64,000 nt of DNA from NCBI RefSeq assembly GCF_900188325.1, contig NZ_FZPD01000001.1, positions 496,001 to 560,000 of the forward strand, read 5' to 3'. Position numbers and translations under genes: made by a program. The notes beneath the pieces are model-generated. The model had not been told where the DNA came from and searched no databases. It worked only from the letters and a program-made list of their open reading frames with translations. The stretch comes from Ekhidna lutea (GTDB taxonomy: Bacteria > Bacteroidota > Bacteroidia > Cytophagales > Cyclobacteriaceae). Below are positions 11,992-25,868 of this stretch, in pieces; the stretch's first letter is position 1; each line of letters starts with the position of its first letter.

Positions 11992-12021
11992 GGAGTTATT
12001 TTGTGACTTTAAAATTGGTCG

Positions 12022-12510
12022 CTAATCAAAGCTCACAGAGACATCCGTAAATGTTCCTGTAAAGGAATCTGCATCCACAAAATCATTTGCATCCTGAACC
12101 CAGGTAAATGACCCTGACACAAGCCCTTGACCTCTATCTATTTTTGAAAAAGTAGTGGTTACTTTTCCTGTTGTATTGAAATCACCATTAAATGTCATAG
12201 TGGCAGAATTGTATCCTTTACCTAGTTCAAACACATAATTCTCACCTTCGGAATCGAAGGTATTATCGTTGTATTGATTCGCCCATATTGCAAAACTAAA
12301 TCGCGGGCTTCCTGGTCCAAATTGATACGTTATCAGCATGTATTCTGAGCTTGTTGGTGTAGGTCTATTTCCACCTAAATCGAATACATCATAATCAATG
12401 GCTACATCAAGACACTCTCCATTGGCATTTCCTTTTTCACCGCATGACTCGTCTTCTCCACAAGCGAAAAAAAGAGCACACGCTATAAACGTTATTGCTT
12501 TCCAATTCAT
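12022..12510 (-). CDS. Hypothetical lipoprotein
   Basis: The 162-residue protein begins MNWKAITFIACALFFACGED, a signal peptide with a lipobox (FFAC, Cys about 17), and continues with a Cys/Gly/Glu-rich stretch. The mature part is beta-strand-rich (FSFAIWANQ, GTFTDVSVSF) and resembles small Bacteroidota lipoproteins of the calycin or DUF6252 type, though I am not sure of the family. A hairpin terminator follows. It is probably a single-gene transcript. Confidence 0.7.
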   Translation of the reverse strand: MNWKAITFIACALFFACGEDESCGEKGNANGECLDVAIDYDVFDLGGNRPTPTSSEYMLITYQFGPGSPRFSFAIWANQYNDNTFDSEGENYVFELGKGYNSATMTFNGDFNTTGKVTTTFSKIDRGQGLVSGSFTWVQDANDFVDADSFTGTFTDVSVSFD

Positions 12511-12600
12511 TTTTTTATTTCAAATGTCAAACCAATGGATAGGTTTTTCAATCCCTTTCAGACGGTATTTGAATATCCGTGATAATTGGTATATGAAATG

Positions 12601-12634
12601 AAAAACCCCGATTCCACAATGTTCGGAACCAGGG
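12601..12634 (-). terminator. Rho-independent terminator of the CHASE2 gene
   Basis: On the minus strand, CCTGGTTCC pairs (with two G-U pairs) with GGAATCGGGG, then a T5 run. It is about 37 bases past the CHASE2 stop codon. Confidence 0.75.
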
Positions 12635-12670
12635 CCTCAGTCATGAATCAGTCTCACCAAAAATTCATGA

Positions 12671-13843
12671 TTAACTTTTTGAGGGGCTGGTTCTGTAAAA
12701 AATTAGTGCTGACAATCGATCCAGGATATAAAATGCGATGGCAATGAAGAAGACATTGATGTGAATATTGAAAAGCCAGAAGGTAAGGATTGAGGTGATC
12801 GTCAAAATCAAAAAATAGCTTGCAAAACCTGCCAGATACCGGGTCATTTTTAAACTTTTAAGTTTCTTAATTTTTTGTTCAATTAGGTCTCCTTCGGCAA
12901 AGGCCATGTAACTTAAGTAGCCATAGGCAGCAGCGAGAAGGAGAAAAAACCATGGATTGATGATGGTATCGTTGTGGATTAACGAAAGAAAGGCATTAAG
13001 GAGAATGAGAGGGCCGGCAGTTATTTCCAGCACCGTCTCATGCATGTCGTTTTCAAAGAAATCACCAATCACGATCACTTTATCAGCAACGAACTGCTGA
13101 ATGTCCTGGTCAGTGAGATAGAGTAATTCACCAAGACTTACCGGATTGAATCCAGCCTCGAGATCGTAAATATCTTTTTGAAGAATACGATAGTTCATGA
13201 TAAAATTATTTAGCGTCCATTCCCGTCCCACGTTTAGAAATGGTCCTCTTTTGCTGACCTCTATATTATTAATGGTCTCATAGACCTTAAGAGGGAGTAG
13301 CTTGGAAGTATCGTTGTAGATGAGTTGGTATTTATAAACTCCATCAAAAGCACTCCCGATCAGGTAGTCTGAGATTCCGAAATTGACGTCTTGAAATAAT
13401 GGCTTTTCCACCTCATCGTATTCGTTGATATGAGCAGATAGAATGACATTGTCCAGCTTGTTTAGCTCTAGCTCCAGTTCATCATCGTACGATGAAGAGT
13501 CTACAAAATGAACGTCGATGATGACATATTTGGGCTTGGAATCACCATCATTAATCACTTTGAGAAGTTGGGCTAATTTTTGACGATCTGTGATTGCCTG
13601 ATTGCCGACAGGGAACCCAAATTCATCGTATCGATCAATTAACTGTAAATCATACGAAGTATTAATTAATGCAAAGTCTTCCGAATCCGGACGTTCACGA
13701 TTGGCAAAATTTAGTGCCGTAGTGCTCCATATTAGAAACTTCTCATCTCCGGCCAGCCACGGTAGCTTCATCAAGTAGAATGTGAAAGCCATCATGATGA
13801 TGGTATTCACCACAATCAGCAATATGAGTATCGGCTTTTTCAA
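12671..13843 (-). CDS. CHASE2-domain membrane protein without an output domain
   Basis: The 390-residue protein has one N-terminal membrane segment (about 5-25), an extracytoplasmic CHASE2-type sensor region (about 30-285, with VIIDVHFVDSS and VIVIGDFFENDMHET blocks) and three closely packed membrane segments at the C-terminus (about 295-382). Family knowledge: CHASE2 usually precedes a cytoplasmic kinase, cyclase or diguanylate cyclase domain. Here the chain ends about 8 residues after the last membrane segment, so no output module is fused. Partner proteins must then carry the signal. The gene is 3 bases downstream of the FecR-like gene in the same operon, which itself follows the WD40-caspase gene. 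Confidence 0.82.
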   Translation of the reverse strand: MKKPILILLIVVNTIIMMAFTFYLMKLPWLAGDEKFLIWSTTALNFANRERPDSEDFALINTSYDLQLIDRYDEFGFPVGNQAITDRQKLAQLLKVINDGDSKPKYVIIDVHFVDSSSYDDELELELNKLDNVILSAHINEYDEVEKPLFQDVNFGISDYLIGSAFDGVYKYQLIYNDTSKLLPLKVYETINNIEVSKRGPFLNVGREWTLNNFIMNYRILQKDIYDLEAGFNPVSLGELLYLTDQDIQQFVADKVIVIGDFFENDMHETVLEITAGPLILLNAFLSLIHNDTIINPWFFLLLAAAYGYLSYMAFAEGDLIEQKIKKLKSLKMTRYLAGFASYFLILTITSILTFWLFNIHINVFFIAIAFYILDRLSALIFYRTSPSKS

Positions 13844-13846
13844 AAT

Positions 13847-14611
13847 TTAGAAATTGGAGATTGCCTTTTTAAGCTGTTCTTCTGTGCACTTTCCGTATAT
13901 CGAATTGATAATTTCCAGTAAGGCGTTTGCATCATCAGGAAACTGCTCATTTAGTGACTTGAGCTGCTCATCTGATACATAAGCCAAATCCATTTTTGTA
14001 ATGAAAGTGGAAGCTTGCTCTTCGGTATTGTAATAGAGGAGTTTAGCATCTTTCACCATTTCAGGATTGATAGAGTTTCCATCTATGGAAAAGAATTCTT
14101 TCAAATCAAATACAAGGTTTTCTCCATCGTTATCAAGCTTTTTATTGATCGTTTCATTCGCATACTGATACTGTACATAGAAGAACTTGCTTTCTGACAT
14201 TGGGAAAGCAGAGGAAGAAACACTCACGAAATATGAATCGCCAAGCAGTGCAATCGGGCCTTCATTGAAATGCTTTTGAAAATCTAATGTGTTGTTGATG
14301 GATCCGGCTCTGGTACTCAAGCGTCCTCTCACCGGTGAGATCACTGAAGTCAAAGCGTAAACCGCATCACTTTGTGAGGTGGAAGAGCTGTTTTGTTGGA
14401 TCACAAAGCGACCTCTTTCCGAGCTTAAAACTGCAGCTCTTGCATCATCCGTTTCAAATTTCAGATTCGCATCCTCTGAAATTTTGGTCCCCTTAGAAAG
14501 ATAAGAACCTGACTGGGTATCATAGATTTTTCCGATAGTATGGATGACCGTGTACGACTGGCTTTGGCCTTGAAAGGCAATTAGTACAAGTATGACGAAT
14601 GTGTATTTCAT
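13847..14611 (-). CDS. Exported FecR-like hypothetical protein
   Basis: The 254-residue protein has a cleavable signal peptide (MKYTFVILVLIAFQGQSQS). Residues 22-100 read like a FecR-type periplasmic domain: VIHTIGKIYDTQSGSYLSKGTKIS followed by an Asn/Asp-rich strand and a gain-of-order RGRFVIQ. The remainder is alpha/beta and unassigned, ending in a helical segment. In other bacteria FecR-like domains occur beside CHASE2 proteins (from memory), which fits the next gene. Role: perhaps a periplasmic ligand sensor or adaptor. The FecR call is moderate; the signal peptide is clear. Confidence 0.6.
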   Translation of the reverse strand: MKYTFVILVLIAFQGQSQSYTVIHTIGKIYDTQSGSYLSKGTKISEDANLKFETDDARAAVLSSERGRFVIQQNSSSTSQSDAVYALTSVISPVRGRLSTRAGSINNTLDFQKHFNEGPIALLGDSYFVSVSSSAFPMSESKFFYVQYQYANETINKKLDNDGENLVFDLKEFFSIDGNSINPEMVKDAKLLYYNTEEQASTFITKMDLAYVSDEQLKSLNEQFPDDANALLEIINSIYGKCTEEQLKKAISNF

Positions 14612-14643
14612 GTGTAGTTATTTGTTTTCAGCGGTCACATGGA

Positions 14644-14667
14644 ATTCGTCCCGAATGCTCGGGACTC
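14644..14667. repeat. TCCCGA-N4-TCGGGA palindrome
   Basis: TCCCGAATGCTCGGGA lies in the 65-base gap between the WD40-caspase gene and the FecR-like gene. A closely related palindrome (TCCCGAAATATCGGGA) occurs at 57791. There is no T run, so it is a repeat or mRNA hairpin rather than a terminator. Confidence 0.5.
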
Positions 14668-14676
14668 ATTTCATTT

Positions 14677-17600
14677 TTAATAAACCTTAAAATCGTTTCT
14701 AATATTTTCTTCTCTTGAGGTAGGCACCTGTTTGCCATTACTCAATAAGATTACTTGCTCACCTACATATTGCCTGATTTCCGATACCCGATAGTCACGA
14801 TCTCTATTGATGTCAGCACGTCTGGTTGAAAAACCCTGAATCAGGCAGCTGGTAAAAAGCCCATTCTCAGAGTTTACTCCTTCAGCAGCAAACTCGGTAC
14901 CTCCAGCAGCAGATATGACTGTTGCTCCTGTTCCTTTTCGCATGTCACTAAAAAGTGCTTTGGATAACTCCAGGGTATTGTCCAGTCCAAAGCTGTTTTC
15001 TTTCAACTTCACAAGTGATCCGGCAGAGCGAAAGGCTACAGAACCCACGGAGCTAATGGATTCTTCAGCTTCCTCTATGTCATCTTCATCTAATTCACCT
15101 GCATGGCACGTATCCATCATCAGGAGTTTGTTTCTGCATTTGATCCCGTCAATCAATGCTTGTAGTTGTTCGTAGGATAGCCCACCACTTGATGGATTGT
15201 TAAAATCCATGTTGTGGGTAGCGAAATAGTAGGTATAATCTTTATCCAACACGCCATGCCCGGCAATGAATATCATAACTACATCATCCACTTGCGCTTG
15301 CTCTACAAAACTTCGGATGGCCTGAATGTTGGCATCCGTTGCATTTTGATTGACTATGAGTTTTTCGAACACATTTTCATATTCAGATGAACCTTTCATG
15401 GTTGAAATGATGTCTCCTGCATCCTTGGCAGCAAATGCCAGGTTATGTTGGGATTGCTGATATTGAGATACTCCAATGGAAACCAGATAAAGATCCGGCT
15501 TATCAAAATCGGTGGTTAGCTGTACTTCGAAAGTTTCTGGCAGAGACTCCAATCCTTTACTGTTAATAGCTGTGACTTTGATTTCATTCAGCCCTTTGCC
15601 CAACTCGACGGAGATATCTTTTGTAATAGAGGCTGATGGTGCAACCGAAATACCGTTCGAACCAAAAGCCGGAACATCGTTGATGTAAACCTGTAGTCGA
15701 TTTATGGATTGATTTTCATCAGTTGCTTTAGCCGAAAAAGTCAGTGTTCGCTGATCTGTTTCCAACGGAATGGAAAGCATATCAACATCCATTTTTGGTA
15801 GTTCATTTGAAGTAGATAGATCGGCCGGGTTGAAACCTAATCGCTTTAAGCGTTTATTATATGCAGCTTCGTAGGAGGCGATAAGTTTTTCTGAAGCATA
15901 GCCAAGTGTTTTAGCAATGACATCAGGTCGGTTGTGTTTGAGCTCTAATTGCTCAAATGGCAATACGTTGTTCCCTTCTTTGAATGCAATCGCCTTAGCA
16001 GCATTTTTTGAAGAAGTATAATGAAAGTCGGGGGTGTAAGCGATAAATCCACCCTCTTCAATAAGAGCCATGCTTATGGTTTTTTTGCCTTGCTGAAGGT
16101 TATAGAGTGCTATTTCTCCTGATTCATTGGTGGTAATGGCAAACCTTGAATCCATGCTAAAAACAGCATCGGTAATTATACCTTGCTGAGTGTCGTTGAT
16201 AATTTTCTGATTGCCTTTTTTGATGGTCACATCATATCCATCAAACCGAATAGAGTAGTCTCCTCGACTGAATTTGTCTTCTAATGATTGAAAATCCTCT
16301 TTTGATTTTTTGCTTTTGTAATCCGTGACAGACCATTCATTTAGGTCATTCGCGTCGGTGAGTGCCCAGATTTTATCTTCATCTTCAGGGTTGAACTTCA
16401 CCCATACGATGTTGTCTTTTTTCTCTTTTAATGTCTTGTAAAGTCGTCCGGTTTTGAAATTCCAAATTTTCATAAAGGACGTGTTAACGGCAGTGGTAGC
16501 CATATACTTTCCATCTTTGGATACATCGATGTGATTGATATCGGATGATCTGTCGAAAGTTCTGACCAAAGTACCTGTTGTAATGTCCCACATGGTCATG
16601 TCCCGATCCAGCGATCCAACTAAAATGTGTTTTCCGTCAGGCATCACGTCTACAGCCAGTGCCGGCTGAACATAGCCCTCCATGTCTCTGATTTTTCGTC
16701 CGGTTTCATAGTCCCAAAGCTTGAGCTGTCGCTTTTGATCTGATGTAACAATGGTTCGGTAATCCGGAGATAAGGCAAGCCAGTTGGTGTTTTTGGTGAT
16801 GTTCTTGATTTCTTTTACGACCGGAGGCACATAGTTTATGGCCTCTTTATTTCCCGGTTCGGGAAAATCAGCATTTTCAATATCATAGACTTTTATGGAT
16901 CGTTGCTCATTTACAATGACTTTGGTTTGATCCTGACTCAGAACAGCTACTCCTCTGGGGTTATTGATTTGCCATCGGATAGGTTTGGATACTTCACCAA
17001 AATGATTCCGGTTCTCGCTTAGCTCCACAAGGGAAACACTGGCGCTACCGGTTTCTTCCTCTTCACCTTTTTCTGCTAAAAATGGTGTGAAAACATTTTG
17101 AGAGAAAAGAATTCTTTTTCCATCATTGGTGAACTCAATGTTGGAGTAGGTCATTACAAAAATGGTGGTTGACTCTTTGCCTATCCGCCCGTTAGCTACA
17201 TTTCCAATCACAGCAAATCCGGTCATGATCGCTTTAGTGTAAGCGATAGCTGCTCCGGATCCTTTCACATTATCCAGTGCATCAGCAAGAATTTTTCCTT
17301 TTTCTGGATCTACAAGCTTTACCTCTACCCCATTGTTTTTGCCTCCACCTGTGACAATTCGGTCTCCGCTTGGAGAAATGGCCAGGTTCATAATTGGTGC
17401 AGTAAATCCTGAAATGGTTTTAATGGTGTCTCCCGAAGTATTCCATAACTTCAAAATCTCATCTTCACCTCCTGAAATAATCATAGTTGCATCGTTTGAA
17501 AGCTTCGCCGTATTAGCGGAACCCTCATGCGCCTGAATTTGGGTTTTCACCTCACCGGTAATGGCATCCCACAGAATGATGGTCCCACTACGGTCACCAC

Positions 17601-17865
17601 TTACCAAGAGCTTTCCATCCTGTGACAAATGGATAGAATTGACGGGAGCTTCGTGCGCATTGAAAGTGTTTACATCAATACCAGTTTGTACATCCCACAT
17701 TTTGATAGACTTGTCATCGCTGGCAGAATAGACATATTTACCGGTTGGCGAATATTGAACCATGTTGATCCCTGCGGTATGCCCCTGTCGGATGATCAAC
17801 TCACTTTGCTGTGAGAGAGCAGTCCAGGAAATGAGAATGGATAGAAGTGCTAAAATGGTTTTCAT
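14677..17865 (-). CDS. Exported WD40-repeat caspase (metacaspase-like, C14)
   Basis: The 1062-residue protein has a signal peptide (1-20), two blocks of WD40 repeats (about 25-340 and 360-670, with GxxxxSASDDKSIKMWD-type units), a beta-sandwich segment (about 705-790) and a C-terminal caspase-fold domain (about 795-1062). The catalytic dyad is visible: His in FIAGHGVLDKDYTYYF (near 870) and Cys in LLMMDTCHAGELDE (near 920). Family knowledge: prokaryotic caspase homologues cut after basic or acidic residues and often act in stress or death signalling. Export to the periplasm would be unusual for a death protease. It follows the PQQ gene (separated by a terminator) and precedes the FecR-like and CHASE2 genes. 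Confidence 0.92.
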   Translation of the reverse strand: MKTILALLSILISWTALSQQSELIIRQGHTAGINMVQYSPTGKYVYSASDDKSIKMWDVQTGIDVNTFNAHEAPVNSIHLSQDGKLLVSGDRSGTIILWDAITGEVKTQIQAHEGSANTAKLSNDATMIISGGEDEILKLWNTSGDTIKTISGFTAPIMNLAISPSGDRIVTGGGKNNGVEVKLVDPEKGKILADALDNVKGSGAAIAYTKAIMTGFAVIGNVANGRIGKESTTIFVMTYSNIEFTNDGKRILFSQNVFTPFLAEKGEEEETGSASVSLVELSENRNHFGEVSKPIRWQINNPRGVAVLSQDQTKVIVNEQRSIKVYDIENADFPEPGNKEAINYVPPVVKEIKNITKNTNWLALSPDYRTIVTSDQKRQLKLWDYETGRKIRDMEGYVQPALAVDVMPDGKHILVGSLDRDMTMWDITTGTLVRTFDRSSDINHIDVSKDGKYMATTAVNTSFMKIWNFKTGRLYKTLKEKKDNIVWVKFNPEDEDKIWALTDANDLNEWSVTDYKSKKSKEDFQSLEDKFSRGDYSIRFDGYDVTIKKGNQKIINDTQQGIITDAVFSMDSRFAITTNESGEIALYNLQQGKKTISMALIEEGGFIAYTPDFHYTSSKNAAKAIAFKEGNNVLPFEQLELKHNRPDVIAKTLGYASEKLIASYEAAYNKRLKRLGFNPADLSTSNELPKMDVDMLSIPLETDQRTLTFSAKATDENQSINRLQVYINDVPAFGSNGISVAPSASITKDISVELGKGLNEIKVTAINSKGLESLPETFEVQLTTDFDKPDLYLVSIGVSQYQQSQHNLAFAAKDAGDIISTMKGSSEYENVFEKLIVNQNATDANIQAIRSFVEQAQVDDVVMIFIAGHGVLDKDYTYYFATHNMDFNNPSSGGLSYEQLQALIDGIKCRNKLLMMDTCHAGELDEDDIEEAEESISSVGSVAFRSAGSLVKLKENSFGLDNTLELSKALFSDMRKGTGATVISAAGGTEFAAEGVNSENGLFTSCLIQGFSTRRADINRDRDYRVSEIRQYVGEQVILLSNGKQVPTSREENIRNDFKVY

Positions 17866-17882
17866 GGCAGTGGAGACTTTAG

Positions 17883-17918
17883 AATAAAAAGCGATCAGCC
17901 GGAAAATGACTGATCGCT
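17883..17918 (-). terminator. Rho-independent terminator of the PQQ-propeller gene
   Basis: AGCGATCAG and CTGATCGCT form a perfect 9-bp stem with an 11-base loop (17890-17918). Read on the minus strand the downstream arm is followed by TTTTTATT. It lies between the PQQ and caspase genes, so the caspase gene needs its own promoter or read-through. Confidence 0.9.
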
Positions 17919-17934
17919 AACCCTAATGAGAATC

Positions 17935-19848
17935 TTAGAAACTATAACTAATGATTTGCTTTTTGTCAGCTTTGAAGAAAACCTGACCGGAAACCTGATC
18001 ATAGTCATAAATTGGCTCCTTGTCGCTTAGTAATAAAGTGCCAAGCTCCTCGCCCGTTCTTCGATCTACTTTCACTAATCCAGCACTTTTACCCTGACCA
18101 CCTTCACCAACGCGTGTTAAGATCATTCGAATGTCTCCCTTGCTAACTGTAGCCTGAAACTTTTTCTTCGCTTCAGCGCCTACCTGGCCTGCAGCATTAA
18201 AAAGATCTTGAGCTTGCTGAGCATACATTTTACTGTAGTAGTCATTTGTCCCGTACCTTGAATATGCTGCCACATGAGAAGATTGCATTTGAGCCGCAGC
18301 TCCCATTGCCATAACCGATACCTGAGCAGCTCTCAACGCAATCTTAGCTGCCAGACTCAGTCCGGGTGCTTCCCAGTATTTAGCAAACCTCACTGATCCA
18401 TCGGGCTCAAGCATGACAAGGTTATTGCCATCCATGAAGAGGTATCCACCGGCAACCGATTCTACACTTTCTGGTGAAGCATTTTCACCTTCAAACTTCT
18501 TTGCAAGTCCTTTGTGGAGCACCTTATAGTCACCGGTCAAAAGATCGATTTCGAAAAGATCTCCATCAACAACCATGATCTCTTTTGTGAGCTCTGGCTT
18601 GTATCGAAGTGATGGCACTTCTAGCATCCCTTTCTTATCCCAGATCAGTTCTCCATCGTATTGTATGTAGCCAAGTCTACCTTTAATATCGGTGTACATA
18701 ACTCCTGTAGCAGCAATCTGATCAATATTGATCCCTTTGATTTTCTGATCCCAGATAACATTACCATTCTTTCTGTTGAGAAGTAAAAGCTGTTTGCCTT
18801 TCGATGTGGCTAAAATCCCTTTTTCACCTAGATCAACAACATACCCATCAATTTTCTTCACCTCCCATTTCACGCTTCCATTTTGAAGATCATACATGGT
18901 GAACCACTTGTCATCAATCACAACTACTCCATCACTCATCGCAGACATGGTAGGTACTACTTTCAGCTTTAATTCTTGCTCCCATAGTTTTTTTCCAGAC
19001 TTCATGTCCAATGCAGATAGTGTTCCACTATTTTTCTTTTTTTCAAAGAAATATCCAGTTGATAAATCCAGGCTTAAATCGAAACTTTCGAATACTTGCT
19101 TTCTATGCTCTGTATTGTAAGCCCATTTTACATCTCCTGTCTTTGGGTCCATTTTGGCGATCTGAGTAGTTCCTGGAAGTACGATATCACCATCTTCAAG
19201 TAGTGCAGGAAAACCATTAACGGCAATTTCTTCATTGGTCCAGATGATCTTTTGGGAAAGGAGATCTACCATTTTTGTAATTGTAATCGTAGGGGTTCCT
19301 TTTTGAGAGTAATCTTCGAAATTGGTAGAGATGATCACCATTCTTAGTTCAGGAATGTAGCCTGTTCCATTAAAGTTAAACTGAGCCATTTCTCCGAATA
19401 ATGGAACCTTAATAATTGGCATTTCAGCGATTTGAGGACTTATTACTTCTTCGCCTGTCTGGATATTGATCACAGCATATTGTCTGTATTGATATCCATC
19501 GGTGAATTTTAGTTCCACATAATCGGATACTTCCTCATATTCATCATCAGTAAGTACTCTTATAAAGTTTTCAAAGGCATATTTAGGCTCTACCTTTTTA
19601 CCATCAGGACCTTTCATCTTCTTGGCTTGTTCAAATGCCTCACTGGTCCATAAAATATTACCATCCCGGCTATCTACGCCGTGAAGTTTGAAGTCTTTGG
19701 TGCCTACTAGTAGAATTCCACTTTCAGTAACACTGTTCCACTCTACTTCACTGTCAAAGTCAAGTTGCCAGAGGGCATCTTGCGCATTTGTGTGACTTAG
19801 TGCTACAAGTAGCAATAAGCTTAAAATTGTTTTGAATAATTGTTTCAT
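17935..19848 (-). CDS. Exported PQQ-like beta-propeller protein
   Basis: The 637-residue protein has a signal peptide (MKQLFKTILSLLLLVALSHT, then NAQD) and at least six PQQ-type propeller blades with the W-docking pattern (DGNILWTSE, GDVKWAYN, GKKLWEQE, GSVKWEVK, GNVIWDQK, GELIWDKK). The C-terminal third has an Ala/Gln-rich helical stretch (about 500-560) not typical of BamB. The blades resemble BamB or quinoprotein propellers, but no quinone-binding Cys pair is seen, so it is probably a scaffold or binding protein rather than a dehydrogenase. Upstream is a 210-base region with inverted repeats, possibly a structured leader. Confidence 0.82.
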   Translation of the reverse strand: MKQLFKTILSLLLLVALSHTNAQDALWQLDFDSEVEWNSVTESGILLVGTKDFKLHGVDSRDGNILWTSEAFEQAKKMKGPDGKKVEPKYAFENFIRVLTDDEYEEVSDYVELKFTDGYQYRQYAVINIQTGEEVISPQIAEMPIIKVPLFGEMAQFNFNGTGYIPELRMVIISTNFEDYSQKGTPTITITKMVDLLSQKIIWTNEEIAVNGFPALLEDGDIVLPGTTQIAKMDPKTGDVKWAYNTEHRKQVFESFDLSLDLSTGYFFEKKKNSGTLSALDMKSGKKLWEQELKLKVVPTMSAMSDGVVVIDDKWFTMYDLQNGSVKWEVKKIDGYVVDLGEKGILATSKGKQLLLLNRKNGNVIWDQKIKGINIDQIAATGVMYTDIKGRLGYIQYDGELIWDKKGMLEVPSLRYKPELTKEIMVVDGDLFEIDLLTGDYKVLHKGLAKKFEGENASPESVESVAGGYLFMDGNNLVMLEPDGSVRFAKYWEAPGLSLAAKIALRAAQVSVMAMGAAAQMQSSHVAAYSRYGTNDYYSKMYAQQAQDLFNAAGQVGAEAKKKFQATVSKGDIRMILTRVGEGGQGKSAGLVKVDRRTGEELGTLLLSDKEPIYDYDQVSGQVFFKADKKQIISYSF

Positions 19849-20058
19849 GTCTGATCGAGTTTATTCGCGGTTAATTTTTATTAAATCAAAGTTTATCGAA
19901 TATGACCTTCCATGAAATCCACTACAGATGGGATATTTATATACCGTGAAACCCGTAGATGGATAAATAACTAGTAGGAGTATTCCTTATCCCCTTTCGA
20001 GTGACTCGGGCTACTGTGTTAGTCCTCCCAGGTAATACTGCCAGATTTTTAAAAGGTA
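19849..20058 (-). promoter_or_regulatory. Leader region of the PQQ gene with inverted repeats
   Basis: No gene fits here. In + strand coordinates GTATTCC (19980-19986) can pair with GGTAATAC (20031-20038), enclosing a CGAG/CTCG hairpin flanked by CCCC and GGG. On the minus strand this would form a branched 5' leader. I cannot match it to a known riboswitch; the response regulator ending at 20059 has no other clear terminator. Confidence 0.25.
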
Positions 20059-20676
20059 CTAGATAAGGTTGTTTGCGTAGGCGAATTTGATGAGCCCAAC
20101 CAGGTTATTGGTTTTGGTTTTGCGAAAGATGTTTTTGCGGTGAGTTTCTACCGTTCGTTCGCTGATGAACAGCTCTTCGGCCATTTGTTTGTTGGTAAAT
20201 TCTTTAGCGATGAGCTTGAGGATTTCCCGCTCTCTGTCGGTCAAAAGCTTTTGCTCTTCAGTACCATTCAGACCTTTCATGAGCATGGTATTCACATCAG
20301 AGCTTAGGTACACTTTTCCATTTTTCACCGCCCGAACTGCATTTACTAACTCTTCGTGTGAATCCTTTTTCAGGATGTACCCATCCACGCCTTCTTTCAG
20401 GATTTCTTTGATAAGATGTGCTTCATCATGCATGCTCAGCACAATGATTTTTGTGTTGGGGTATTTCTGCTTCACCCTCCGAACTAATGTCAGTCCATCG
20501 TCATCCGGCAGGTTGTAATCGGTTATGAGTAGGTCAACCTTCTTTCGAGTTAAATCATCAAGAGTCTCACCAACTGTGCCAGCAGAGCCAACGACTTCAA
20601 GATCATCTTCAGCGGAAAGAATTTTAATTAACCCACCTAATAGGATGGCGTGATCGTCGGTTAAAAATATGTTCAT
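20059..20676 (-). CDS. NarL/FixJ-type response regulator (LuxR HTH)
   Basis: The likely start is the ATG at 20676 (MNIFLTDDHAI), which gives a 205-residue regulator; an ATG at 20718 would add 14 unconserved residues. The receiver domain (1-120) has Asp7/Asp8 and the phosphoacceptor Asp53 in DLLITDYNLPDDDG, then the conserved Lys in YILKKDS. The C-terminal LuxR helix-turn-helix (about 140-200) carries LTDREREILKLIAKEFTNKQ and RTVETHRKNIFRKTKTNN. It is the partner of the two histidine kinases encoded just upstream in the same direction. Its targets are unknown. Confidence 0.93.
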   Translation of the reverse strand: MNIFLTDDHAILLGGLIKILSAEDDLEVVGSAGTVGETLDDLTRKKVDLLITDYNLPDDDGLTLVRRVKQKYPNTKIIVLSMHDEAHLIKEILKEGVDGYILKKDSHEELVNAVRAVKNGKVYLSSDVNTMLMKGLNGTEEQKLLTDREREILKLIAKEFTNKQMAEELFISERTVETHRKNIFRKTKTNNLVGLIKFAYANNLI

Positions 20677-20782
20677 TTTGGCAGGTTTGTCTCTGCCCAT
20701 GAAAGATAGCAAATTCATTGGGTTTCCCTTCTAAGCCCTCAATAATTATAAGTTCAAAGAAGTTGAAGGAATGAGTTGAAAG

Positions 20783-22567
20783 CTATACCATCTCCATGGT
20801 ATTTTGCTCTACCTCTTTCTGAAGTTCAGTTTGAACTGGTATGTTGATGATTAAGGAATTACCTCTGGTTTCAGGGTGTGTTTCAAGCTCCAACTTACCT
20901 CTAATGAGGTTTGTCCTGGTATTAAGATTCTTCCATCCATTCCCCTTGCCAGACGTAAGGAGGTTCCTGTCAAAACCTGCACCATCATCCTCGATGAGTA
21001 GTGTTATTTCATCTTCATCCTTAGTGATTTGCAATGTTACTTTTTTAGCATCTGAGTATTTCAGGATGTTGTTGATCCACTCTTGAGAAATGCGATAAAG
21101 CGAAATTTCCTGCAGCTCGGAAAGGCGTTGGTCTAGCCCAAACACATTTAATTCTATGCTCATATTTCCAGCCTGATTTATACGACCTACAAATTCTTGA
21201 AGAGCACTTTCCAATCCATTTTTGATCAGGGTTTGAGGCATTAGATCAAAGCAGATGTTTTTTAGTTCTCCGTACATGTCATCGATCACTTTTGAAGACT
21301 CTTCAAACACCTTTTGGCGTTCGTTGGGCTTGGCTCCATCGTTCAAATTTTTCAGATTCATGTTTAAAATTGAAATCATTTGCCCAAATCCATCATGAAG
21401 GTCACGGGCATAACGGGATCGCTCTTTTTCCTGCGATGTAATGGTTGCTCTGATTTCTGCTTCACGTGCCATCCGCTTATGTTCTTCCACTAATTTTTCA
21501 GCTTTCAGTTTAGTCCTCTGTCGATTTTGGAGGAAGAGAAGTATAAGGAGGAAAATAGCTGTTCCTGCACCGATGAGAAAACTATTTTTTTGTTGAATTT
21601 CGGCTTGTTGTGTTTGAATTTCAGCTTCTTTCTTTTCGGTTTGATATTTAGTTTCCAGCTCGGCTACCTGTTTGCTTCTGCGGTCATTAAAAAGGCTGTC
21701 CTTTAGTGAGACGTGATCTTTAAAATAGGCAAGGGCTTTTTTGTAATCACCTCGTTGCTCTTGCACAGTAGCGATCATCGAAAGTACGTATTGTTCGAAA
21801 TCAGCGTATGAAACTTTCTGAGCAATCTTTAACGCTTCCAAGAAATAAACTTCTGCTTGATCATATTCTTGTAGTTCGAAGAACATCTCGCCGATGTTAT
21901 TTTTGACAATTCCATAGCCTGCTTCATCTCCAATCAGCAGCTTGTATTCTGCTGCCAACTCAAAATAGTATTGAGCACTGTCAATTTTATTCAGCTTGGT
22001 GTAGGCCATACCCAAATTATCATAATTGTAACTTAGGCCAATGGTATCGCTAATGGCAGATTTAACCTCCGTAGAGCGGAGGTAGTAGTCAAGGGATTCC
22101 TGAAATTTTTCTTGCTGAAATAACAGTACTCCAATGTTGTTGAGGCTGTTTCCAATACCTATCGAATCATTCTGAGCAATCGCATAATCTAACCCTTGAT
22201 TAAAGTAGTCTTGAGCAAGGTCAAAATCACCTTGCTTTTTCTGCAATGTGCCAATTAAGTTGAGAATTTCAGAAGGCTTTGATTTTGTATTGAGACTAAC
22301 ATACAAATCTAGTGAAGTTTGATAGCTCTCTAGAGCACTATCGAATGAACCCAGACAATAGTGGGTGTATCCGAGTTCAAGAAATGCCCATGCTTTTAGC
22401 CGGCTATCAGGCATGGATTTCAGTTTCGTCTGAAGGATTAGTGCTAGTGCACTGTCACAATTGGTTTTGCGGATTTCTGCTACTTTTTCAAGTAGATTTT
22501 GATCTATTTCCTGAGCGAATACGCTGACTGACAATACGATAAGTGTAAAATAGGCGGACGGTTTCAT
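20783..22567 (-). CDS. TPR-containing sensor histidine kinase (HisKA_3), copy A
   Basis: The 594-residue kinase has a signal-peptide-like N-terminus (1-19), about six TPR units in the periplasm (30-305), a coiled segment, one membrane helix (about 328-346), then a HisKA_3 dimerisation domain with the phosphoacceptor His in ARDLHDGFGQMIS (near 391) and a HATPase domain with the N-box NNILKYSDA and G-box GDGAGFD. This layout (periplasmic TPR sensor and NarL-type kinase) is common in Bacteroidota. The kinase half is strikingly similar to copy B at 22658-24514. It lies 106 bases upstream of the regulator gene. Confidence 0.93.
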   Translation of the reverse strand: MKPSAYFTLIVLSVSVFAQEIDQNLLEKVAEIRKTNCDSALALILQTKLKSMPDSRLKAWAFLELGYTHYCLGSFDSALESYQTSLDLYVSLNTKSKPSEILNLIGTLQKKQGDFDLAQDYFNQGLDYAIAQNDSIGIGNSLNNIGVLLFQQEKFQESLDYYLRSTEVKSAISDTIGLSYNYDNLGMAYTKLNKIDSAQYYFELAAEYKLLIGDEAGYGIVKNNIGEMFFELQEYDQAEVYFLEALKIAQKVSYADFEQYVLSMIATVQEQRGDYKKALAYFKDHVSLKDSLFNDRRSKQVAELETKYQTEKKEAEIQTQQAEIQQKNSFLIGAGTAIFLLILLFLQNRQRTKLKAEKLVEEHKRMAREAEIRATITSQEKERSRYARDLHDGFGQMISILNMNLKNLNDGAKPNERQKVFEESSKVIDDMYGELKNICFDLMPQTLIKNGLESALQEFVGRINQAGNMSIELNVFGLDQRLSELQEISLYRISQEWINNILKYSDAKKVTLQITKDEDEITLLIEDDGAGFDRNLLTSGKGNGWKNLNTRTNLIRGKLELETHPETRGNSLIINIPVQTELQKEVEQNTMEMV

Positions 22568-22657
22568 CTACCTAAGATGATAAAATAATTTCTTGGGTAG
22601 AAGTCCACTTTCGGTCTTTTCGTTTAAATAAGGATTTTTTAGGATAATTGATGATGA

Positions 22658-24514
22658 CTAAGCAATAACCTCTTCCTGATTTTTTATTAATAGTTTGCTT
22701 GGTGCGTTTACGATTAAAACGTTACCCTTCTTTCCATGCTCTGTTTCAAGAGTCAACTCTCCCTTAATCAAATTTGCTCTCGTATTCAGATTTTTCCACC
22801 CGTTACCTTTTCCGGCGGTGAGTAATCTGGAATCAAAACCAGTCCCATTATCTTCGATCAACAAAGTAATTTCATCTTCATCTCTTGTGATCTGCAAAGT
22901 CACTTTTTCTGCATCGGAGTACTTCAAAATATTATTTATCCATTCCTGAGATATACGATAAAGTGAAATTTCTTGTAGGTCTATTAAGCGCTCATCAAGC
23001 CCGAAGACATTTAGCTCGATGCTTATTTTACTCGTTTCATTGATCCGATCTACAAATTCCCTTAATGCGCTTTCTAATCCGTGTTTAATTAAAGTTTGTG
23101 GCATTAGGTCAAAACAGATGTTTTTAAGTTCTTTATACATATCCTCAATTACCTGAGAAGATGAGGCAAAAACTTTTTGTCGTTCATCAGGCTTTGATCC
23201 GTTTTCGAGGCTTTTGAGATTCATATTGAGAATAGAGATCATCTGCCCAAATCCATCATGTAAATCTCTGGCATATCTGGCCCTTTCTTTTTCTTGTGAT
23301 GAAATAGTAGCTGTGATTTCAGCTTCCTTTGTTTGTAGCTTCACTTGCTGGAGCTTGAGCTCCTGCTTTTTTCGAATTCTATTTCTCCAAAGTGCTCCAA
23401 TGACTATTAGGAGCGCAAGTACTGTGGCTGAAGCTATTAAAGCGATTCTATTTCTGGAAATGGTAGCTTCTTGTTCTTCAAGTAGTGCTTGTTGCAGTTC
23501 AATCTGCTGCTCTTTCTTCTGTGTTTCGTATTTAGCCTGAAGCGTCGAAATCACCTTGGCTCGCTCTAGGTTGAATAAACTGTCCTCGAGATTTTCGGCT
23601 TGCACTTTTACCAACAACGATTTCTCAAAATCACCCGCCATGGCAAGTACCGATGATAATGAGTCTAATGACTTGCGAACTAAATCCGGGTATCCGAAAG
23701 CCCTACTTTCATTAATGGCTTTAGTGTAGAATGAAATAGCAGATTGAACATCTTTGGTCTGAAAATAAAAATCAGCTATTGCCTTATAGTTTTCCAGTAC
23801 TCCTTGATTGTCATTAATGGCTTTTCTTATTTCAGTGGATTGATCGAAATAGGAAATTGCTTTTTCAAAATTGCTTTTTCTTCTTTCCATATCAGCAAGA
23901 TCAAGGTAGGTATAACCCAATCCAACACTATCTTTTTGTTGGAGCCTGATTGCGTGACATTTCAGATAAAGGGGATCTGATTTTTTGTAATTTTTTCTAA
24001 CCCAATGAAAAGCAGCCTGCATGCCATAGGAAGTTCCTAGCGTCCTTAAGTCACCTGATTCTTTGGCGAGATGTTCCGACTTTGTCCAGAGGCTCAGTGC
24101 TTTTTCAATTTCTCCTTGTTTTTGGTAGTAGTTGGCCATTTCATTGCATAGCTGAGCCAAACCACTTTTATCATTTAGCGAGTCATACAGATCATATGAC
24201 CGTAAATATGCAGGTAATGCTGTTTCATAGTCACCTATGAGATACAGTATGATTCCATAATTTTTTTGAGCCAGCGCTTCTTTATGGGGAGAGTTTAGCT
24301 TTTTTGAGAGTTTCACGGCTTTGCGTGTAAGCTGAAGCGAATGGGCAAAGTCAGCACTATAAATGGCGTAGAAATTATTGTTGATATAGTCAACCAAATC
24401 CAGTCCTGACAAATTGGCTAATTCTTTTTCTATCTCTGAGGTGCTATTGTCCTGAGAAAAGCTGCTCCAAAACAGTCCAGAGAGAGCAAGAAATATTAAC
24501 AGCTTTTTTGCCAT
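22658..24514 (-). CDS. TPR-containing sensor histidine kinase (HisKA_3), copy B
   Basis: The 618-residue protein has the same order as copy A: signal peptide (MAKKLLIFLALSGLFWSSFSQ), periplasmic TPRs (about 30-320), a coiled coil, one membrane helix (about 353-373), HisKA_3 with His in ARDLHDGFGQMIS (near 418) and a HATPase domain. From the HisKA_3 start to the G-box the two kinases are mostly identical residue for residue, while their TPR sensors differ. This points to a tandem duplication with divergence of the sensing half. Both likely signal to the single regulator at 20059. Confidence 0.93.
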   Translation of the reverse strand: MAKKLLIFLALSGLFWSSFSQDNSTSEIEKELANLSGLDLVDYINNNFYAIYSADFAHSLQLTRKAVKLSKKLNSPHKEALAQKNYGIILYLIGDYETALPAYLRSYDLYDSLNDKSGLAQLCNEMANYYQKQGEIEKALSLWTKSEHLAKESGDLRTLGTSYGMQAAFHWVRKNYKKSDPLYLKCHAIRLQQKDSVGLGYTYLDLADMERRKSNFEKAISYFDQSTEIRKAINDNQGVLENYKAIADFYFQTKDVQSAISFYTKAINESRAFGYPDLVRKSLDSLSSVLAMAGDFEKSLLVKVQAENLEDSLFNLERAKVISTLQAKYETQKKEQQIELQQALLEEQEATISRNRIALIASATVLALLIVIGALWRNRIRKKQELKLQQVKLQTKEAEITATISSQEKERARYARDLHDGFGQMISILNMNLKSLENGSKPDERQKVFASSSQVIEDMYKELKNICFDLMPQTLIKHGLESALREFVDRINETSKISIELNVFGLDERLIDLQEISLYRISQEWINNILKYSDAEKVTLQITRDEDEITLLIEDNGTGFDSRLLTAGKGNGWKNLNTRANLIKGELTLETEHGKKGNVLIVNAPSKLLIKNQEEVIA

Positions 24515-24590: not shown

Positions 24591-25868
24591 TTACTTCTCA
24601 AATTCCAGTATCGTCTTTTCTATAATATCACAGCATTCATGTAGCTGTTCTTCTGTCATGACCAAAGGAGGGGCGAATCGAATGATATTACCATGAGTAG
24701 GTTTAGCTAGAAGTCCATTTTCTTTCAGCTTCACACAAATATCCCATGCTGTTGAGCTTTCTTCACCGTCGTTGATCACAATGGCATTCAATAAGCCTTT
24801 TCCTCTCACCAGGTTCACCAACTCTGATTTCTCGATCATTTTATTCATGCGATCTCTGAAAATATCACCCAACCTTCTGGCATTCTGAGTTAATTTTTCA
24901 TCTCTAATGACATTTAAAGCAGCCATCCCAACAGCCCCTGCTACTGGATTTCCTCCAAAGGTAGAGCCGTGCTGACCAGGCTTAATCACTTCCATCACGG
25001 TATCATTTGCCAATACAGCAGAAACAGGATAGGCTCCTCCGGAAAGTGCTTTGCCTAAAATGAGAATATCAGGCTCAGTGTAAGTTGATTGTTTTTCGCA
25101 ATGGCCTTCGCATGAACAATCGCCACAAACCCTAAGCAATGCGCCTGTTCTTCCAATTCCTGTTTGAACTTCATCAGCTATGAACAGCACACCGTGTTTT
25201 TCACAAATTTCTTTCACTTTTTTGATGTACCCTTCATCTGGCACCATTACTCCTGCTTCTCCCTGGATAGGCTCAACAAGGAAACCAGCCACATTTTCGC
25301 CCTGAACGGCTCGCTCAACCTCTGCCAGGTCATTGTAGGGAATTCGGATAAACCCGGGGGTAAATGGCCCAAAGTTTTTATTTGCTACCGGATCGTTTGA
25401 GAATGAGACAATTGTGGTCGTTCTTCCGTGGAAGTTGTTGTCGCAAACGATGATTTGGGCTTTATTTTCATCAATTCCTTTTTTCTCATACGCCCATTTT
25501 CTACAAAGCTTAATGGCTGTTTCAACAGCTTCAGCGCCTGTATTCATGGGCAGTACTTTGTCAAAACCGAAGTACTCAGTTATGAATTTTTCATAAGGTC
25601 CAAGCACGTCATTATAGAAAGCTCTTGAAGTTAGCGTGAGCGTCTCAGCTTGCTTGCTCATAGCTCCCACGATTGCAGGATGACAATGCCCCTGGTTTAC
25701 AGCAGAATAAGCAGATAGAAAATCAAAATATTGTTTTCCTTCTACATCCCAGACATACACACCATCTCCCTTCGCCAATACTGCTGGTAGCGGATGGTAG
25801 TTATGGGCACCATGCTTATCTTCCAGTTTTATTAATTCTTCACTCGAAAGTGTTTTGTTTTCTATCAT
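24591..25868 (-). CDS. rocD: Ornithine--oxo-acid transaminase
   Basis: This PLP enzyme moves the delta-amino group of ornithine to 2-oxoglutarate, giving glutamate semialdehyde for proline and glutamate metabolism. The 425-residue protein has the OAT pattern: [17 protein letters not shown] at the N-terminus, [23 protein letters not shown], the cofactor Asp in [15 protein letters not shown], and the PLP Lys in [13 protein letters not shown]. An insertion of about 17 residues at roughly 246-262 carries four Cys and one His ([14 protein letters not shown]) just after the GRTG motif; it may bind a metal. The gene stands alone, with a strong terminator. Confidence 0.95.

Follow-up and report, generated by a model that had tools for sequence, protein, structure and literature searches.

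Most discussion of bacterial caspase-like proteases concerns cell death and defence. A locus of Ekhidna lutea, at which a caspase gene lies close to the gene of a CHASE2 membrane protein, raises the question of whether such genes form an inherited unit and what an exported caspase might do in the company of a membrane sensor. The window, that is the whole stretch of DNA analysed, comprises 64,000 nt (GCF_900188325.1, NZ_FZPD01000001.1, positions 496,001–560,000 of the forward strand), and the stretch studied in it spans positions 12,671–17,865. G-numbers denote genomes and L-numbers fetched loci; coordinates are window positions unless a locus is named. To judge from gene order and sequence, the gene set seems to link a membrane sensor with an exported caspase relative.

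Extent and inheritance of the gene set

The PQQ, caspase, partner and CHASE2 genes follow each other on the minus strand with gaps of 69, 65 and 3 bp (Table 1). A first-pass annotation had placed the last three in a row at the two shorter spacings, and the open reading frame coordinates confirm this. No RNA element reached the gathering score in window positions 12000–21000. Compared with their L244 orthologues, the four genes carry few amino-acid-changing differences (pN 0.09 for PQQ, 0.11 for the caspase, 0.23 for the partner and 0.19 for CHASE2; pS about 0.8 and saturated); as dS is saturated, only pN and pS were used.

Table 1. Positions of the module genes, the intervening hairpin and the adjoining genes in the window.
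Feature	Position	Strand	Basis and remarks
CHASE2 membrane protein, 390 aa, TTG start	12671..13843	-	CHASE2 35.3 bits (cut-off 26.3); hydropathy
Beta-rich partner protein, 254 aa	13847..14611	-	AlphaFold2 model; remote homologue of other CHASE2 partners
WD40-caspase, 1062 aa	14677..17865	-	Pfam WD40 (137 bits) and Peptidase_C14 (50.0 bits, cut-off 21.4); motifs; hydropathy; model and fold matches
Terminator-like hairpin between PQQ and caspase genes	17890..17918	-	11-pair stem, T-rich tail
PQQ/BamB-type beta-propeller protein, 637 aa	17935..19848	-	PQQ_2 72.9 bits; upstream member of the module
LuxR-type response regulator, neighbour outside the core	20059..20718	-	Pfam
TPR histidine kinase, neighbour outside the core	20783..22567	-	Pfam

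The caspase, partner and CHASE2 genes are adjacent and in the same order in six of the ten genomes of the genus, and the other four have none of them, although congeners share ancestry and are not ten independent trials. Among the six carriers, the five other partner proteins are 53–63% identical to that of the window, CHASE2 is 65–70% and the caspase 71–83% identical, the latter being a 194-residue piece at a contig end in G195. The four non-carriers, one of which (G197) is a genome of 73% completeness, gave only weaker caspase matches, of the kind that other WD40 and C14 proteins would give. Scanning genome contigs revealed two further carriers, Reichenbachiella faecimaris DSM 26133 (L249) and Flammeovirgaceae UBA6059 (L250), in both of which the order is PQQ, caspase, partner, CHASE2 and the flanking genes have no match in the window. 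This gives eight module copies (L245–L248 are congeners already counted, and L244 is taken as G194), all in Cytophagales by NCBI names, and the CHASE2 orthologues are 52–70% identical. That the genes travel together, on which the first-pass annotation had staked its proposal, is thus borne out by eight genomes with the set in the same order. Searches of the order sample found no orthologous triads outside the genus; the order-wide cases described below use other caspase lineages.

The PQQ gene is present in five of the six genus carriers, the contig of the sixth beginning inside the caspase gene, and accordingly in seven of the eight copies, the eighth being cut by a contig end; it is absent from the four congeners without the module. 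Being inherited with the set, it therefore belongs to the module. The first-pass annotation was right that this gene lies upstream behind a terminator-like hairpin and wrong to set it aside, since co-inheritance rules out an unrelated neighbour. Hairpins were also scored in the PQQ–caspase gap in three of four other copies (L244, L249 and L250, not L245).

The regulator adjoins the module in four congeners, and a kinase stands at this place in four congeners at only 40–52% identity to the two of the window; neither is found in the L249 and L250 stretches. Both occur at the same site in G202, which has none of the four module genes, and they were rejected as core parts. The sites without the module delimit it further. 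In G196 and G197, which lack it, bioB (named from its Pfam domains) adjoins the homologue of the window gene at 24591–25868, which we take to be an aminotransferase. In G202 the regulator and kinase lie between these two genes and the four are missing; in G200 and G199, which carry the module at another site, the two either adjoin or have a single gene between them; and in G201 the contig ends before the site can be judged. The unit that comes and goes is therefore the four genes, with regulator and kinase varying separately. We are confident that this genomic module is real and conserved, and that it comprises four genes, not three.

Variation around the module was seen at three further places. 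Window positions 20783–24514 hold two TPR histidine kinase genes in tandem, of which G194 has only one at this place. In G194, a further C14 gene (L215:6124-7293, 389 aa) faces the CHASE2 end of the module in convergent orientation. An 87-aa open reading frame at L219:3489-3752 is a remnant CHASE2 copy 0.9 kb behind the intact gene; it aligns over 53 residues with the C-terminus of the window CHASE2 protein at about 60% identity.

The four proteins

The caspase consists of a signal-peptide-like N-terminus, WD40 repeats, an Ig-like linker and a C14 domain (aa 797–1059), whose score exceeds the curated cut-off and which holds the His-Cys dyad. The catalytic residues, given in the first-pass annotation as a His near 870 and a Cys near 920, are His869 and Cys918 by their motifs and are invariant in all eight aligned orthologues including that of the window; with them intact, the protein is a predicted protease. 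A hydrophobic N-terminus ending before a Gln is present in the window caspase and the six other orthologues with a complete start, and beyond residue 45 none of these seven has a 19-residue hydropathy window above 1.35. The N-terminal peak over 19 residues is itself modest (1.36 in both the window protein and L244) because the hydrophobic stretch is short; over 12 residues the values are 2.27 and 2.65. The N-terminus thus fits a Sec signal peptide, and hydropathy of all seven complete N-termini agrees with the earlier suggestion that the caspase is probably exported.

In the fold search with the caspase model, the top-ranked matches were mostly other proteins, many aligned over part of the model only and some of them Ig-like or FnIII modules. 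Caspase-fold matches comprised T. brucei metacaspase 2, 3bij and MALT1 (E 7e-5 to 2.5e-4) with query TM-scores of 0.23–0.29, the C-terminal part of the model being poorly predicted; a search by sequence for relatives of that part among solved structures returned none. PADLOC assigned its caspase model (42 bits) and a HEAT-ARM model to the caspase and no defence model to the PQQ, partner and CHASE2 proteins. The absence of recognised defence partners in PADLOC leaves uncontradicted the earlier view that the set differs from the known cytoplasmic caspase defence systems.

The PQQ propeller has an export-type N-terminus by eye. The partner likewise begins with an export-type N-terminus and has nothing meaningful in Pfam. 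Its AlphaFold2 model (pLDDT 76.7, from an alignment of eight sequences) shows two beta regions and, between them, a stretch of low confidence (aa 75–102, pLDDT below 50), and no solved-structure relative was found by sequence. The label "FecR-like" that it had been given did not hold up: none of 21 members of the partner family, the window protein included, matches Pfam FecR (PF04773), the family profile reaches only 3.9% probability (E 0.011) against four FecR-matching proteins, and a fold search of the PDB with the model gave nothing at E 0.001 or below. We therefore do not retain the FecR name. One family comparison bearing on this question covers 25 of 36 families, those listed. The partner is, however, a remote homologue of the exported protein found with other CHASE2 proteins of the order (96%, E 4.8e-9, with profiles of 21 and 23 sequences; 44%, E 2.4e-4, with the eight module orthologues alone). 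This second partner type reached 45% probability over 81 columns against the FecR proteins, so that a faint link to FecR is possible.

In other classes of the phylum, we inspected eight regions around long CHASE2 proteins, picking small neighbours by eye. Four of the five small open reading frames scanned match FecR, the fifth, a fragment in L276, giving no match, and in each of the four cases one large exported-looking open reading frame lies between the FecR protein and a CHASE2 protein of 729–741 aa; the one such CHASE2 protein that was scanned has a cyclase domain. Loci L278, L279, L282 and L283 thus have three genes in a row, encoding a Pfam FecR protein, an exported-looking protein of large size and a CHASE2 protein. 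The large protein, which had no Pfam match in the two cases scanned, might at a guess be an outer-membrane receptor.

The CHASE2 protein contains no domain other than CHASE2. By hydropathy, a single hydrophobic segment at the N-terminus is followed by a long loop and then by a C-terminal hydrophobic region, so that the domain has flanking membrane helices as in CHASE2 receptors; only eight residues follow the last hydrophobic segment, and there is no cytoplasmic kinase or cyclase output domain. Pfam and hydropathy hence agree with the original description of a CHASE2 membrane protein without an output domain. At E 1e-6, Pfam did not pick up the CHASE2 orthologue of L249 or the CHASE2-like proteins of L047 and L048; these were identified by their similarity to the window protein. 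The search of solved structures by sequence returned a single, chance-level match for CHASE2.

A proposed sensor pair and its caspase-fold neighbours

With no cytoplasmic output domain on the CHASE2 protein, its signal most probably does not enter the cytoplasm; nothing follows the last hydrophobic segment and the neighbouring proteins have the look of exported ones, so the exported protease is the simplest candidate for the output. We tentatively favour, with slightly more doubt than confidence, a four-gene envelope module in which a sensor pair of CHASE2 protein and partner controls an extracytoplasmic caspase. The CHASE2 protein would be anchored in the inner membrane and expose its sensing domain to the periplasm, where the 254-aa partner, a beta-rich protein, would pair with it; the WD40-caspase and the PQQ propeller would both be exported. 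A ligand or stress sensed by the pair would release or activate the caspase, which would then cut an envelope or surface protein, with the propellers possibly serving as scaffolds for binding of substrate or partner. What the data show is gene linkage, joint presence and absence, export-type N-termini, intact catalytic residues, few amino-acid-changing differences between orthologues and the repeated, separate placement of caspase-fold proteases next to the pair. Counting against the mechanism are the hairpin that sets off the PQQ gene in most copies scanned and, as described below, the many CHASE2/partner pairs with no caspase-fold gene nearby, the weak enrichment among CHASE2-centred loci and the lack of both partner and CHASE2 around the nearest relatives of the caspase. 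The location, contact, activation, direction of control, substrate and physiological role of the module proteins are what we infer.

The wider distribution of the pair bears on this reading. Partner relatives occur in 50 and Pfam CHASE2 in 108 of the 194 genomes of the order sample. We fetched 40 loci around partner relatives and 40 around Pfam CHASE2 matches, in both cases parts of longer lists, and found a same-strand CHASE2/partner pair within 500 bp in 18 of the former and 33 of the latter: pairing of CHASE2 with such a partner is common in the order. A caspase-fold gene lies within 1.4 kb in nine of the 80 loci (six partner-centred, three CHASE2-centred), compared with about 1.5–2 caspase-fold genes expected by chance in 3 kb flanks over 80 loci, the caspase-fold density being taken from the genome of the window or assumed to be 30 per 7 Mb. 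The partner-centred set is ranked by likeness to the window and may therefore be biased, the CHASE2-centred loci alone show weak enrichment (3/40, P 0.05–0.09), and the counts are not independent since some loci come from close relatives (e.g. G047 and G102). L063, with a caspase 3.6 kb away, and L117, with a CHAT gene 5.2 kb away, were left out of the near counts; the C14, CHAT, CHASE2 and partner profiles were self-built from few sequences and may miss members. The window's own genome has four CHASE2 genes and 14 caspase-fold genes; three of the CHASE2 genes have a caspase-fold gene no more than 2 kb away (P about 7.6e-5; 0.002 with the window excluded), the 2 kb limit having been chosen once the loci had been seen.

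The caspases beside the pair are of several kinds. C14 caspases of other lineages stand in the same order of caspase, partner and CHASE2 in G166, G117 and G009; the caspase is followed by the partner in G120, where the contig ends, and in G141, where no CHASE2 was found; and G029 has the order caspase, CHASE2, partner. In a tree of 41 C14 domains, the window clade (five rows) is apart from G120/G117/G009, from G166/G123 (the G123 caspase stands 1.3 kb off the pair), from G141 and from G029, several rows including G029 having long branches and an unsure placement. The label "beside the pair" requires five changes on this tree, at least four of them forced by well-supported branches. A further family is represented by CHAT proteases near CHASE2 or the partner at two loci of the window's own genome and in G117 and G062. 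Caspase-fold proteases have thus been placed beside the pair repeatedly and separately, from several C14 lineages or as CHAT.

Further arrangements were recorded around these genes. The own-genome locus L010:4622-11649 (C7) holds CHASE2 and a TPR-CHAT protease gene within 7 kb, together with a gene that by eye is sigma-factor-like and two open reading frames without a Pfam match; no partner of the window type was recognised there. A second CHASE2/partner pair of this genome (L011:758-8113, C9) has a 1399-aa TPR-CHAT gene 0.9 kb from the partner gene. L198 (G141) shows a row of two CHAT genes and a WD40-C14 gene by the self-built profiles. Near another CHASE2 gene, L012:13558-13854 and 15404-15694 are two nearly identical short open reading frames, presumably resembling GIY-YIG endonucleases.

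The exchange of proteases invites a broader version of the favoured reading, possible though appreciably doubtful, in which an output-less CHASE2 protein and a dedicated periplasmic partner gate an exchangeable exported caspase-fold protease. With several C14 lineages or CHAT as the protease, the sensor pair would then serve envelope proteolysis in Cytophagales as a general-purpose front end.

The same data can be read as an envelope-stress neighbourhood, in which CHASE2 and partner are an old envelope pair and the exported proteases are merely co-regulated, with no direct contact or control. A caspase-fold gene stands within 1.5 kb of only six of the 51 pairs examined; the other 45 have none, and the pair can hence work without one. 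The two own-genome CHAT genes each have one gene between them and the pair, and one of them is also on the opposite strand. We nevertheless regard this explanation as rather unlikely, because at five loci caspases of separate lineages directly precede the partner gene with gaps of 0–105 bp (CHASE2 being next in three) and the three window genes are all-or-none in the genus. Control could also run in reverse, the exported caspase processing the partner or the CHASE2 loop by regulated proteolysis and the product carrying the signal: gene adjacency and the weakly predicted stretch of the partner, which could be a cleavable linker, are compatible with this, but its low pLDDT may reflect only the shallow alignment, and we consider the proposal improbable. 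Least convincing, and in our view very improbable, is a role in defence or self-killing in which phage attack or damage would lead the caspase to destroy envelope proteins, since the points in its favour, namely that caspases act in known bacterial defence, the PADLOC caspase match and the patchy presence in the genus, are countered by the lack of PADLOC defence models for the other three proteins and of a PHROG with known function for the three of the four that were scanned.

Relation to known systems

Several described systems resemble the module in part. In Proteobacteria, the accounts seen in part describe CHASE2 as driving a cytoplasmic kinase or cyclase (PMC5192318, PMC13001267). The BiofilmReg operon of Burkholderia contaminans, as far as its description was available, encodes an exported LysM and FecR protein beside a CHASE2 receptor that has one membrane helix before CHASE2 and three after it (PMC5192318). 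The gene of an exported protein thus lies beside the CHASE2 gene in both; however, CHASE2 is joined there to a cytoplasmic histidine kinase, the partner is annotated as FecR, and the part of the source consulted mentions no caspase or propeller. Our module contains neither a CHASE2 histidine kinase nor a LysM-FecR partner and hence does not belong to operons of this type. According to the portions of the sources at hand, the Sinorhizobium (S. meliloti) CHASE2 cyclases CyaD1, CyaD2 and CyaK respond, with outer-membrane NsrA, to an envelope signal, and a CyaD1 construct without CHASE2 is described as constitutive; unlike in the module, the output is cytoplasmic cAMP (PMC13001267, PMC5498481). 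Magnetospirillum mtxA resembles the partner in encoding a signal-peptide protein without known homologue before a CHASE2 protein, and differs in its cyclase output, no protease being mentioned in the excerpts available (PMC4439547).

Caspase and CHASE2 domains have been joined before: a metacaspase–CHASE2 fusion of Trichodesmium erythraeum combines both in one protein, whose caspase is predicted to be cytoplasmic in the passages seen, whereas the module has a separate, apparently exported caspase and other partners (PMC3501461, PMC2853523). Nor are exported bacterial caspases new as such. The N-terminal helices of one metacaspase group may be signal peptides, and 28 metacaspase genes are given for Haliscomenobacter hydrossis (Bacteroidetes) in the sections of the source consulted (PMC3501461). 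Other WD40-C14 and TPR-CHAT proteases of the order have the same protease domains and, among those listed, export-type N-termini. Unlike the module caspase, its nearest C14 relatives have no such company: neither partner nor CHASE2 was found in the stretches fetched around 20 of them, comprising the nearest 17 outside the module (35–44% identity; stretches of 3.6 to 17.5 kb) and three further ones. Text searches of the open-licence literature found no paper on CHASE2, FecR and caspase together, none with "periplasmic caspase" or like phrases, and no description of this set.

Compared with these systems, the module is a new arrangement of known parts with a plausible mechanism. If the mechanism is true, the caspase switch would sit outside the cell interior, and the module would suggest a way of signalling for CHASE2 proteins that lack an output domain. 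A co-inherited sensor module would offer a concrete system for asking what exported caspases do, and one that is testable, as Reichenbachiella faecimaris DSM 26133 is a cultured carrier.
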